From Deltaproteobacteria bacterium (GTDB taxonomy: Bacteria > Myxococcota_A > UBA9160 > UBA4427): a DNA stretch of 64,000 nucleotides. Each line of letters starts with the position of its first letter. The first letter of the stretch is position 1. A program made the position numbers and the translations under genes. The stretch lies in NCBI GenBank assembly GCA_029261855.1, contig JAJDAN010000028.1:62001-126000 (forward strand), written 5' to 3'. The notes under the pieces were generated by a model. That model had not been told where the DNA came from and ran no database searches. It saw only the letters and a program-made list of their open reading frames with translations. Below are positions 8,692 through 16,790 of this stretch, in pieces.

Positions 8692-8745
8692 CGCAGGGCC
8701 CTCGCTGTCCGTTCCGTCGTGGACGCAGCGAGGGTAGGCCGCTCT

Positions 8746-10494
8746 TCAGCGGATGTCCGGGACCACGGGCGCCAGCGCGAGAGGTTGGTTCAAGGGCAGG
8801 GCCGTCACGAAGGCGCGAAGCTCCCGCAGTGCCCGCGCCGGCGGCGTACCGGCGTCGGCGAACACCCCGAGCGCGGACCCGTCGAGCCAGGTCGCGATGC
8901 GCGCGTTCATCAGCTCGGCGAGCTGGTCGGCCAGGGTCGGCGCCGGCGGATAGGGGACGAGGGCGACGTCGTCGTCCAGGGACAGTCCTGCGTCGAGACG
9001 CGCGCGGTTCATCGCCTCTCGGAGACCGCCGAGCTCGTCGACGAGCCCGACCTCCAGTGCCTGCACGCCCGTCCAGACACGACCCTGGGCCACGGTGTTG
9101 ACGGCGTCCACGGACATCCCGCGCCCCGCCGACACGCGCTCGAGGAAGAGGTCGTAGGTCTCTTCGACGAGCGACTGCAACCGCGCGCTCGCTCCGGGCG
9201 AGAGCGGCTCCGCAGAGAGATAGAAGTCCGCGTGCGTGCCCCGGGTCATGGGGAAGACGTTGATCCCGAGATCGTCGAGCAAGCCGCCCACCACCGGGCG
9301 CAGCGCGAAGACGCCGATCGATCCCGTGATGGATAGCGGAGGCGCCACGATGGCATCGGCACCCGCCGCGACGTAGTAGCCGCCGGACGCGGCGACGTCC
9401 GAGAAGCTCGCGATCACCGGCTTGCCCGACTCGCGCGCGCGATTCAGGGCGTCCCAGATCATCTCGGACGCGAGCGCCGAGCCGCCCGGGCTGTCGATCC
9501 GCAGGATGATCGCGCTGAAGCGATCGTCCGCGGCCGCATCGGTCAGCGCGTCGCCGACGGTCTCCGAAGAGAAGACCGGCGCACCCGACGGCCCCACGGA
9601 ACCCGATCCGCTCACCACATTGCCCGTGCCGTAGATCAGGGCGAACTCGGCGACGGGGTCGAAGCCCACGTCTGCACCGGTGACGCCCTGGTAGGTGCTG
9701 CTCGACACGTGAGGCCCATCCTGGGATTCGATCAGCGCGTGGAGATGCGACTCCCCGTCGAGCAGTCCGGCCGCGATCAGCTCGGCAGAACGGACGGGGC
9801 CGGCGTCGATCCCTTCGCGCACCTCGTCGACGCTGAGCCCGCGACCCTCGGCGATGCCGGTCACGAACTGGTCGAAGGTCGAATCGAGCAAGGAGTTGGC
9901 CTGCAGCCGCGCGGACTCGGACATTTCCTTGTCGGCGAAACTCTCCGCTGCGCTCTTGAAGCGCCCCACCTTCGCGACCGCGATCTCGACGCCGATCTTC
10001 TCGAACAGACCGCCCAGATAGAGGTGTTCGGACGCCAGCCCCAACATCGGGAGCGCCGTGCCCGGCGGCACGTAGATCTCGTCCGCGGCGGACGCCACGT
10101 AGTACTCGAGGTTCGGACTGAAGGACACCGGCTCGAGGAAGACGACGGTCTTGCGACCGGCGGCGCGCAGGCGGCCGATCGCCCCCCGGATCTCCTGGGC
10201 CTTGCCCCACCCGATGTCCAGCGACTTCAGGTGCAACACCACCGTCGCCACGCGGTCGTCCCGCTCGAGAATCGCGAACGAGCTCAGCAGGCTCGCGAAG
10301 GGCCGCGCGGTCTCACCCAGCAACCGCGCCAGCAGCGGGGCGGCGGGCGCCTCGACGTAGGCGCCGGACAGCTCGAGTACGACACTGCTGCCGGGTTCGA
10401 TCTCGACGCTTCCCCGACCGCGCAGGGCGAAGAAGATGAGCACGAGCCCGATTGCGCACAGGACCCCGATCCGCAGAAATGCCTTGTTCTTCAT
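8746..10494 (-). CDS. sppA: Signal peptide peptidase SppA, 67-kDa type
   Basis: The 582-residue, S49-family serine protease is anchored by an N-terminal helix (about 7-24) with its body in the periplasm, where it digests cleaved signal peptides. It has the duplicated domain layout of the Gram-negative long form. The general-base lysine is Lys180 (GRFKSAAE) in the first half and the nucleophile is Ser370 (DVAASGGYY) in the second, which matches the Lys209/Ser409 arrangement in E. coli SppA. The SPGGSA strand and ITGSIGVF loop are also present. It stands alone between the DUF2505 gene and the amidohydrolase. Confidence 0.92.
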   Translation of the reverse strand: MKNKAFLRIGVLCAIGLVLIFFALRGRGSVEIEPGSSVVLELSGAYVEAPAAPLLARLLGETARPFASLLSSFAILERDDRVATVVLHLKSLDIGWGKAQEIRGAIGRLRAAGRKTVVFLEPVSFSPNLEYYVASAADEIYVPPGTALPMLGLASEHLYLGGLFEKIGVEIAVAKVGRFKSAAESFADKEMSESARLQANSLLDSTFDQFVTGIAEGRGLSVDEVREGIDAGPVRSAELIAAGLLDGESHLHALIESQDGPHVSSSTYQGVTGADVGFDPVAEFALIYGTGNVVSGSGSVGPSGAPVFSSETVGDALTDAAADDRFSAIILRIDSPGGSALASEMIWDALNRARESGKPVIASFSDVAASGGYYVAAGADAIVAPPLSITGSIGVFALRPVVGGLLDDLGINVFPMTRGTHADFYLSAEPLSPGASARLQSLVEETYDLFLERVSAGRGMSVDAVNTVAQGRVWTGVQALEVGLVDELGGLREAMNRARLDAGLSLDDDVALVPYPPAPTLADQLAELMNARIATWLDGSALGVFADAGTPPARALRELRAFVTALPLNQPLALAPVVPDIR

Positions 10495-10578
10495 ACGCCG
10501 ACTATCGACCCCCCGCGCCGCCGCCTTCAGTGGCAGTCGAACGAGCGGAGTCTAGCCGGCCCGGACCCCGGGCTAGCG

Positions 10579-10599
10579 GCCGGAAGCACGGCTTCCGGC
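10579..10599 (-). terminator. Perfect hairpin downstream of the amidohydrolase
   Basis: The arms GCCGGAAGC and GCTTCCGGC (9 bp) flank a 3-nt loop and lie 12 bp beyond the amidohydrolase stop. No T-tract follows, so termination may be weak or Rho-assisted. A similar CCGGAA/TTCCGG hairpin follows the LOG-family gene at 47624-47642. Confidence 0.5.
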
Positions 10600-10611
10600 T
10601 TGCGGCGGGGT

Positions 10612-11925
10612 CTAGGCCTCGGAAACGGGCGGCTCGGCGAAGGCCTGCGCGAGCTGTCGCGTGATGTCCGCGGACGTCACCGTACCCTGGCCCTCGCGCG
10701 GGGGCTTTCCACCCGCGCTGCGCAGGCTCAGGTCCACGTCCGTGGCCTGGGCGCGCAGGGCCCCGACCCGGCAGTCATCCTTCGGGATGTGCGAGAACGA
10801 ATCGAGTCGGAAGATCCGCATGGCGTTCTCATGGGTGATCTTGTCGATCTCGTCGTCGGGCACGCCGGCCAGGCTCTGCATCAGACGTTCGGGCGCGTGG
10901 GGCCAGGTCGTGTCCGAGTGCGGGTAGTCGCACTCCCAGGTGATGTTGTCGAGCCCCACGTCGTGGCGGTTCTTGACCCCCGCCGCGTCGTCGATGAAGC
11001 AGGTCACGATGTTGCGGGCGAACACGTCGCTCGGCTTCATGTCGCCGAAGTCCTGGTGGGTCCAGTACTTGTGGTGCTCGTACACATAGTCGGCGCGCTC
11101 GAGGAAGTAGGGCACCCAGCCGATGCCGCCCTCGGAAAGCGCAAAGCGGATGTCCGGGAACTTGCGCAACACACGGGACCACAGCAGGTCCGCCGCGCAG
11201 CTGACGATGCTGATCGGCGTGGTGTGGATCATCACGTCCACCGGCGAGTCCATGGACGTGAAGACCATGCCCGACGAAGAGCCGATGTGGATGCAGATGA
11301 TCGTGCCTTCGTCGCAGCAGGCCTGCCAGAAGGGGTCCCAGTGTGGATCGTGGAGGCTGGGGTAGCCGAGCTTCGTCGGGTTGTCGGTGAAGCTCACCGC
11401 ATGACATCCCTTGCGGGCCAGCCGCCGGACCTCGTCGGCCATCAGCTTCGGATCCCACACGGGCGGGATGCCCAGCGGAATGAAGCGGCCGGGGTAGGTG
11501 CCGCACCACTCGTCCACGTGCCAGTCGTTGTAGGCCTGGCTCATGACCCGAGCCAACTCCTTGTCCTCCTGACGCGCCCACAGCTGTCCCGCGAAACCCG
11601 TGAACGAGGCGAAGCACATGGACGCCAGCACGCCATTCGCGTTCATGTCCCGAACGCGCTCGTGGATGTCGAAGCAACCCTTGCGCATCTGCTCGTACGA
11701 GGTGGGTTCGACCCCGTATTCCTCGGGCGGCCGTCCGACCACCGCGTTCAGCCCGATGTTCGGAAGCTGGTCTCCCTCGAAGAGCCAGACGTCGGCACCG
11801 TTATGTGTGCGGACGATCTGAGGAGCGCGCGCTTTCCACTGCGGAGCCAAATGGTTGTCGAACATTCCGGGCGGCTCGACGACGTGGTCGTCTACGCTCA
11901 CGAGGATCATCTCGTCGACGTTCAT
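10612..11925 (-). CDS. Amidohydrolase family protein (Amidohydro_2)
   Basis: The 437-residue TIM-barrel metal hydrolase is related to the ACMSD/decarboxylase branch. It has the N-terminal DxH-like motif (VDDHVVEPP), later histidines (HIGSSSG, ALSEGGIGW) and the terminal acidic motif CDYPHSD. These proteins are frequent in xenobiotic or aromatic/steroid degradation clusters. The chosen ATG has GGGAG about 7 bp upstream; an upstream in-frame Met lies in the operator region and is rejected. About 60 residues beyond the barrel form a C-terminal tail. A perfect palindrome 17 bp upstream suggests TetR-type control. The substrate is unknown. Confidence 0.85.
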   Translation of the reverse strand: MNVDEMILVSVDDHVVEPPGMFDNHLAPQWKARAPQIVRTHNGADVWLFEGDQLPNIGLNAVVGRPPEEYGVEPTSYEQMRKGCFDIHERVRDMNANGVLASMCFASFTGFAGQLWARQEDKELARVMSQAYNDWHVDEWCGTYPGRFIPLGIPPVWDPKLMADEVRRLARKGCHAVSFTDNPTKLGYPSLHDPHWDPFWQACCDEGTIICIHIGSSSGMVFTSMDSPVDVMIHTTPISIVSCAADLLWSRVLRKFPDIRFALSEGGIGWVPYFLERADYVYEHHKYWTHQDFGDMKPSDVFARNIVTCFIDDAAGVKNRHDVGLDNITWECDYPHSDTTWPHAPERLMQSLAGVPDDEIDKITHENAMRIFRLDSFSHIPKDDCRVGALRAQATDVDLSLRSAGGKPPREGQGTVTSADITRQLAQAFAEPPVSEA

Positions 11926-15380: not shown

Positions 15381-15746
15381 GGGCTGGACTCTAGCCGCGA
15401 GCCCCCGGGGGCACTAGCACTCATCCCATTCTCGCGGACTTGATTTCGTACGCGCCCCGGCCGATGAGAGCGTAGGGCCTCCACCACGCCCAGGGCTGGC
15501 GGAGGCACCGAAGTCGCGAAAAAAGGAAAAGTCGTTCCCAACCCCGGTTCGAACACTGCAACCGCTCCAAAACGGAAAGAATAATCCCTTTGAAATCAGA
15601 TAGTTGCGAATCGACGCCCCAAGCTCTCGCTGGCATCGGCATTGCAAGTATGTGCTGCAGCCCGCAACATCAGGATCATGTCTGGGAAGTTCCTGGGCAC
15701 CCCCCGATGGGCGGGACCTACGAGAATAAAGGTGGTTGTTGAAGTC
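15381..15746. other. Regulatory intergenic region upstream of the PEP-CTERM gene
   Basis: This 366-bp gap has no credible gene. It is more A/T-rich than its surroundings around 15520-15610 (aaaaaaggaaaag, aataatcc), which suits an enhancer/activator region. It contains the sigma-54 promoter at 15631-15646 and a roughly 90-nt leader to the PEP-CTERM start. A Shine-Dalgarno-like AAAGGTGG lies at 15728-15735. The divergent GT87 operon also begins at the left edge. Confidence 0.6.
15631..15646 (+). promoter_or_regulatory. Sigma-54 (RpoN) -24/-12 promoter
   Basis: TGGCATCGGCATTGCA matches the RpoN consensus TGGCAY-Rn4-TTGCW in core bases and has the exact 16-bp -24/-12 geometry (TGGCA, then TTGCA). 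It faces the PEP-CTERM gene, predicted start site near 15657, leaving a leader of about 90 nt. The A/T-rich DNA upstream is suited to activator binding. Confidence 0.78.
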
Positions 15747-16718
15747 ATGCGAAAGCTCACTGTACTTCTCGCAACAGCCGGACTCCTATTAGGATTCTCC
15801 GGTATCTCCCAGGCTGGCGTGTTCGTTGAGCCGACCAGCACCCTGGGCTTGGCAATCGGCGGTCTGCCGGAAGTCAACGTGGCGGCGCTCCCGGGCACTT
15901 CGAGCCTGGTCGCGATGTCCGACGGCAGTCAGGGCAACCCGACGGTCGGTCACAACATCGTGGTTGGCACGACCGGTGGAGCCGCAACGGTCTGGTCGAC
16001 GGTGAACTTCGGGCCCGGCACCGCGCTCTTCACGGGCGTCCCGCTGATCTCGAACCTCAAGGTCACGATGAACAACCAGCAGGGCATCCTGCAGGATGGT
16101 GCCTTCCCGACTGCCACCAACCAGATCGGTGGCGGCGGCACGTTCGGCCCGACCTTCGGTGGCATCATGCGCCTGAGCGGCGTTGCAGTCGTGTTCGCCG
16201 GTAACGGCGCGATTCAGCTGCCGGTTCCGCTCAGCCACGTCGGCGGCAACATGGGTGAGACCACCATGGGCACGCTGCTCGGCAGCAACCTGACCGTGAC
16301 TGCTGGTCCGTTCATTGCCGGCACCTGGGTCATCACCGGCCTGACTACGAACCAGATCAGCATCCCGGCTCGCCCGGCAATCGGCGTCGCCTTCACCCTT
16401 CAGCCCACTCCGGCTGAGGACGTGAAGACGCCGACCACGAACGGTGGCTTCGTCTCGACGGCAACGGTTGCAACGCCGAACCGTGTCGAGCTGAACACCG
16501 TGACGGTCGCCGGTACGAACAATCTGCTGTCGGGTAGCAGTGCGGGTACGGTGACGGTGATCTCGCCCCTGCGCATCAACACCTCCGATATCGCTGGTGT
16601 GATCCCGGGTGGTGGGACTGCGCACTTCGAGTTCGTGCCGGAGCCCGGAACCATGCTCCTGCTCGTCTCGGGTGCAGTCGGCCTGGCCGTCATCGGTCGC
16701 CGCCGAATGCGCAAGTAG
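15747..16718 (+). CDS. PEP-CTERM sorting-domain exported protein
   Basis: The 323-residue protein has a signal peptide (MRKLTVLLATAGLLLGF, cleavage near SQAG). A low-complexity Gly/Thr/Val/Asn-rich body (repeated GTTGG, TVTV patterns) follows, then a C-terminal PEP-CTERM signal: VPEPGTM, a short hydrophobic helix and RRRMRK. Exosortase cuts such proteins at the PEP motif during export, and they are usually associated with extracellular polysaccharide. No exosortase is in the window. The ATG is chosen because the signal peptide begins here and AAAGGTGG lies upstream. It is transcribed from the sigma-54 promoter and ends at a strong terminator, so it looks monocistronic. The function is unknown. 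Confidence 0.88.
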   Translation: MRKLTVLLATAGLLLGFSGISQAGVFVEPTSTLGLAIGGLPEVNVAALPGTSSLVAMSDGSQGNPTVGHNIVVGTTGGAATVWSTVNFGPGTALFTGVPLISNLKVTMNNQQGILQDGAFPTATNQIGGGGTFGPTFGGIMRLSGVAVVFAGNGAIQLPVPLSHVGGNMGETTMGTLLGSNLTVTAGPFIAGTWVITGLTTNQISIPARPAIGVAFTLQPTPAEDVKTPTTNGGFVSTATVATPNRVELNTVTVAGTNNLLSGSSAGTVTVISPLRINTSDIAGVIPGGGTAHFEFVPEPGTMLLLVSGAVGLAVIGRRRMRK

Positions 16719-16742: not shown

Positions 16743-16752
16743 GCAAGACCTG

Positions 16753-16790
16753 AAGAGGGCCATCCCGGAAAGGGGTGGCCCTCTTTCCTT
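16753..16790 (+). terminator. Rho-independent terminator
   Basis: A 14-bp stem (AAGAGGGCCATCCC paired with GGGGTGGCCCTCTT, one G-T pair) encloses a short loop and is followed by TTTCCTTT. This is a strong intrinsic terminator for the PEP-CTERM gene, separating it from nudC. Confidence 0.9.

Follow-up and report, generated by a model that had tools for sequence, protein, structure and literature searches.

The window that we analyzed, a stretch of 64,000 nucleotides (G000:C28:62001-126000) from a 6.96-Mb draft genome, contains a PEP-CTERM gene on its + strand (positions 15747-16718), which starts with the ATG at 15747 and encodes a product of 323 amino acids that scored above the cut-offs of two family profiles, PF07589 (21.4 bits; cut-off, 20.7) and TIGR02595 (19.7 bits; cut-off, 16). 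The PEP-CTERM sorting motif, composed of VPEPGT, a transmembrane helix and RRRMRK, was encoded at 16635-16706 (+ strand; PF07589 match at G000:C28:78635-78706). An alignment of orthologues and a structure model (mean pLDDT, 68.6) suggested a protein in which an all-beta body stands between a signal-peptide-like helix and a C-terminal one; comparison of this model of modest confidence with the PDB gave no convincing match, and a structure-based function was not obtained. The protein nevertheless has what is expected of an exosortase substrate, namely a C-terminal PEP motif, a transmembrane helix and a basic tail, and exosortases are encoded in the genome. In this one Myxococcota-lineage genome, 51 PEP-CTERM matches exceeded the cut-off, beside seven exosortase (PF09721) matches. 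An identity with the flocculation protein PepA was rejected, as NF033554 scored only 22.7 bits against a cut-off of 80. The gene is preceded by a ribosome-binding site (AAAGGTGG, 15728-15735, + strand) that is kept in the same-genus orthologue. A terminator-like hairpin (16752-16786, + strand) with a 15-pair stem and then a T-rich tail lies downstream of the gene. No Rfam element was found in the leader and no sigma-70-type promoter was found for the gene.

The sequence TGGCATCGGCATTGCA (15631-15646, + strand) lies 116 nt from the start codon of the PEP-CTERM gene, toward which it is oriented. Its GG (15632-15633) and GC (15644-15645) are separated by 10 bases, giving a GG-N10-GC arrangement in a TGGCAY / TTGCW context. 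The sequence and coordinates were thus exactly those of the earlier note, which had proposed a sigma-54 -24/-12 promoter on the basis of these core bases, their spacing and their orientation. Its description of the gap as A/T-rich also holds in a relative sense, the GC content being 59.7% at 15395-15630 and 49.6% at 15510-15630 versus 67.9% in the whole window. From sigma-54 geometry, transcription is predicted to start at 15657 (+ strand), 12 nt 3' of the -12 GC. The rpoN gene, whose absence would have spoken against the note's reading, was present as one match in the genome (214.4 bits) with the RpoN box ARRTVTKYRE.

The frequency of such sites was less informative. Sites with at most one mismatch numbered two in the window versus 1.1 expected. 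Genome-wide, TGGCAY-N5-TTGCW occurred 24 times (22 TTGCT and 2 TTGCA), and the expectation was taken from seven wrong spacings (N2-4 and N6-9), which together gave 34 matches (19 ending in T and 15 in A). Correctly spaced TTGCT was about eightfold enriched by this measure, with 22 matches versus approximately 2.7 expected, whereas TTGCA, the form found in TGGCATCGGCATTGCA, stayed at the background level (2 versus approximately 2.1). Motif statistics alone therefore leave TGGCATCGGCATTGCA no better than chance. By its position before PEP-CTERM genes, in contrast, it exceeds chance, since two exact sites were found upstream of the 63 PEP-CTERM genes of the genome versus 0.013 in dinucleotide shuffles. 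Most PEP-CTERM genes of the genome lacked the motif, which the note had named as a condition that would refute its reading, but this does not refute the promoter at TGGCATCGGCATTGCA.

What decides the question is the retention of TGGCATCGGCATTGCA in orthologues. Orthologues of the PEP-CTERM gene were taken from the same genus and family, and their upstream DNA was inspected. Exact TGGCAY-N5-TTGCA was present upstream of seven of them, the distances to the start codon being 133, 184, 189, 199, 200, 211 and 306 nt; an orthologue of another family carried the site with a single mismatch, and a further orthologue had a degenerate site. A subclade of orthologues, whose proteins mostly start with MLRKL, had no -24/-12 site within 1000 bp. 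Among named relatives, a single-protein scan gave no hit, and an alignment of four orthologues used as the query identified three public Myxococcota MAGs. The intergenic DNA of the window was 49% identical to that of the same-genus orthologue, which keeps the exact -24/-12 site, and four conserved blocks stood out: CGAAAAA.GGAAAA....GTTCC, which contains a palindrome; CTTTG...TC.G.TA.TT.CG; CTGGCATC..CATTGCAAG; and a block made up of the ribosome-binding site and a GAAGTC ahead of the ATG. The first three blocks are spaced without gaps between the two genomes.

The palindrome, GGAAAAGTCGTTCC (14 bp; 15525-15538, + strand), is a proposed enhancer (UAS) at which a sigma-54 activator would bind, a conserved upstream site of the kind expected for a bEBP. 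Of 10 aligned orthologous promoters, 7 had the exact core, GGAA-N6-TTCC, at a distance of 85-135 nt ahead of the -24 element (0.026 in shuffles), and 9 had it when one mismatch was allowed (0.43 in shuffles); in several orthologous promoters, the palindrome occurs in two copies 20-23 nt apart. The spacer between palindrome and promoter is 92 nt in the window and approximately 92-131 nt for the main copy in orthologues. We know of no well-known box, whether of NtrC, NifA or another regulator, that resembles this enhancer. Between the two elements, within the second conserved block, lies AATCAGATAGTTG (15594-15606, + strand), which matches the IHF consensus WATCARNNNNTTR. This consensus was exact in 5 of the 10 orthologous promoters, 37-40 nt upstream of the promoter (0.006 in shuffles); it was absent or degenerate in several orthologues, with only a degenerate form in the same-genus one, and the signal was weak in the wider set of promoter targets. 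Both IHF subunits (ihfA/ihfB) are encoded in the genome, each above one curated cut-off. Together with the -24/-12 site, the palindrome and the IHF-type site, which were absent from the earlier note, make up a composite promoter. Given the conservation, the enhancer site, the IHF-type site and the presence of rpoN, the note's reading of TGGCATCGGCATTGCA as a true sigma-54 promoter of the PEP-CTERM gene is very probably right.

In IHF-assisted sigma-54 promoters of the nif type, the enhancer lies approximately 100 bp upstream and an IHF site is situated between the enhancer and the -24/-12 element. The order predicted here, with an enhancer, an IHF bend and a -24/-12 element, is this classic sigma-54 arrangement, the IHF site being assigned by consensus only. 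A PEP-CTERM gene behind a -24/-12 promoter is also known from Aquincola tertiaricarbonis RN12, in which transcript mapping and an rpoN1 mutant demonstrated that the -24/-12 promoter (TGGCAC / CTGCTT) of pepA is RpoN1-dependent (PMC9850573). The present promoter, predicted from sequence, is comparable but differs in serving an unrelated PEP-CTERM protein, by the NF033554 score given above, in another lineage.

To see how far the arrangement extends, 379 genomes were scanned for the composite pattern GGAAN6TTC-N93..123-YGGCAYN5TTGCW, with the reversed pattern as a control. There were 159 matches versus 2 control matches in the 91 genomes of the class, whereas the 288 genomes from elsewhere in the phylum stayed close to the background level, with 13 versus 6; some of the matches represent tandem enhancers at one promoter. 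The targets were surveyed at 94 distinct sites with downstream DNA fetched, excluding orthologues of the window gene. PEP-CTERM genes lay downstream of 13 of these 94 sites, a strong enrichment over the 0.9% obtained with random positions (binomial P, 1.4e-11). Another 21 sites stood before a gene for an ECF sigma factor. Within the genome itself, an enhancer and promoter preceded 5 of the 63 PEP-CTERM genes under looser limits, versus 0.06 in shuffles. The idea that every PEP-CTERM gene has the motif was accordingly rejected (2/63 with the exact site and about 5/63 with the looser composite), and the composite promoter therefore defines a sub-regulon rather than a general rule.

One further target in the genome is an ECF operon on contig C17, which comprises two ECF genes and a methyltransferase gene, and whose TTGCT-type sites have the same enhancer upstream at a similar spacing. 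This ECF/methyltransferase operon (L128:8430 and 8738-11213; G000:C17:22429 onward) stands under the same enhancer/RpoN promoter, TGGCACGGAGCTTGCT, which the first ECF gene has retained in many genomes across the order. At C88:113442, between an exosortase gene and a row of TSP_3-like, PEP-CTERM and sulfatase genes, lies a related promoter, CGGCACGTCCATTGCA, accompanied by an IHF site, AATCAGGCACTTA. At this locus (L124:11635-16519; G000:C88), the exosortase has 546 amino acids with DUF3485 and is below all named Xrt cut-offs; the row of genes that follows it is preceded by a composite promoter of the CGGCAC type. Separately, at L122:12886 (G000:C51:12886), the ATG of another PEP-CTERM gene lies 51 nt from a strong upstream RpoN site, TGGCACGGTCCTTGCT, for which no enhancer palindrome was found. 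Taken together, the promoter anatomy, its conservation, the regulon, and the RpoN, IHF and exosortase genes, all read from the DNA, make a genuine sigma-54 promoter with its composite regulon highly likely, and from them we infer RpoN dependence.

The earlier note had placed the regulator outside the window, and the best candidate indeed lies elsewhere, in an exopolysaccharide (EPS)/exosortase locus, to which the promoter may be linked. A comparison of activator and exosortase matches showed that the NtrC-type response regulator at C18:20747-22204 is the sole sigma-54 activator near an exosortase in the genome. Its gene is the first of an operon that continues with EPS export, chain-length, ATPase and tyrosine-kinase-like genes, some of which were named by reading of their sequences, with wecB and the exosortase gene opposite, and the locus is conserved among relatives. 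Its copies are 70-94% identical in most genomes of the order and mostly 54-66% identical in another family within the class; beyond the class, matches reached only 44-45% identity. Because it lies near an exosortase and its class-wide range matches that of the promoter, this regulator (G000:C18:20747-22204) is the likeliest activator, a proposal to which we give about an even chance. The EPS locus of another genome (G018:C193; L312:6700-8151 and 9910-11331) contains two adjoining paralogous NtrC-type response regulators, the second of which is 80% identical to the C18 regulator.

Promoter and enhancer could also be real and yet served by another enhancer-binding protein, such as the C36 paralogue or a different NtrC-type regulator, which we regard as a serious candidate explanation falling somewhat short of an even chance. 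The genome has at least 18 sigma-54-activator-type matches, and in several relatives the paralogue (C36:3707; 52% identical) and the orthologue of the C18 regulator are near neighbours. In addition, the presence of the C18 regulator, the sole activator profiled, did not co-vary significantly with the promoter within the class (p 0.17). However, only the C18 regulator is near an exosortase in the genome, and its class-wide conservation coincides with the range of the promoter.

The note had further suggested control similar to that by PrsK/PrsR. Haft et al. (2006) described a PrsK/PrsR-RpoN regulon of PEP-CTERM genes in Proteobacteria, in which the promoter precedes 99 of 167 PEP-CTERM genes, PrsR is often encoded in the EPS/exosortase locus, and the PrsR box (motif 1) is a 17-nt sequence ending in TTTACA, separated from motif 2 by 32-92 nt (mean, 62.8); the upstream regions of many other PEP-CTERM genes were left unexplained (PMC1569441). 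The present system shares with it (PMC1569441) a sigma-54 motif with an upstream activator box before PEP-CTERM genes and an NtrC-family response regulator by EPS/exosortase genes, and the C18 regulator scored 414.6 bits to the PrsR model TIGR02915, all of which would fit a true but divergent PrsK/PrsR circuit. In contrast, this score is below the cut-off of 502.6, and the AtoC and NtrC models score higher for the same protein. No protein in the genome passed TIGR02915 (best, 434.9 bits) or the PrsK model TIGR02916 (best, 117.5 bits against a cut-off of 300, covering the kinase part only); these sub-threshold matches were generic two-component ones. Thus, among the genes that the note had suggested looking for, exosortases were found and prsK/prsR were not found above the cut-offs. 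Neither TTTACA nor TGTAAA was present on either strand of 15381-15747; the enhancer here is GGAAAAN2TTTTCC and tends to lie farther from the promoter, a minority of PEP-CTERM genes (5/63) is involved, and an ECF sigma operon is a main target. PrsK/PrsR control as defined is not supported, though the circuit would work similarly, and we consider a divergent version of it unlikely.

That some DNA-binding protein or sigma factor other than RpoN recognizes the conserved block is more doubtful still. TGGCA and TTGCA form an 11-bp direct repeat, and the last base of the site is A in all orthologues versus T in most RpoN-type sites of the genome. Against this, the invariant bases fit the sigma-54 consensus, the TTGCT-type sites of the ECF operon stand behind the same enhancer at a similar spacing, and, as noted above, a sigma-70-type promoter was not found. 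A chance resemblance without function, for which the lack of genome-wide enrichment of TTGCA-type sites and the roughly one such site expected per window might speak, is contradicted by the exact retention in seven orthologues at an ungapped spacing to two further conserved sites and is extremely improbable.

With the C18 regulator as the presumed activator, we propose the following model. RpoN-RNA polymerase would bind 15631-15646 as a closed complex, which the sigma-54 activator on the palindrome at 15525-15538 would open, a bend that IHF may introduce at 15594-15606 bringing the activator near the promoter. The PEP-CTERM protein would then be made only while the activator is active, and an exosortase would process it on export. 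Promoters of this type probably drive a small regulon in the genome and the class, consisting of PEP-CTERM genes, a thrombospondin-type-3-like/PEP-CTERM operon next to an exosortase gene and the ECF sigma operon, and the C18 regulator would couple surface-protein synthesis to the expression of exopolysaccharide and exosortase.

In the literature searched, we found no description of an RpoN regulon with a GGAAAAN2TTTTCC enhancer; new here are the palindromic enhancer, a PEP-CTERM/ECF regulon that spans the class and the regulator proposed for it. It is about as probable as its opposite that, in a class of uncultured Myxococcota, one enhancer-binding response regulator of an EPS/exosortase operon recognizes GGAAAAN2TTTTCC and thereby turns on both an ECF sigma cascade and selected PEP-CTERM surface proteins; such a circuit would run parallel to the proteobacterial PrsK/PrsR one but use a recognition code of its own. 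RpoN control of PEP-CTERM genes is known from Proteobacteria. Here, in a class that lies outside those genomes, a PEP-CTERM/ECF regulon is marked by an enhancer of a different kind and points to a candidate regulator, so that the co-regulation of exosortase substrates with exopolysaccharide becomes a specific DNA-binding question.
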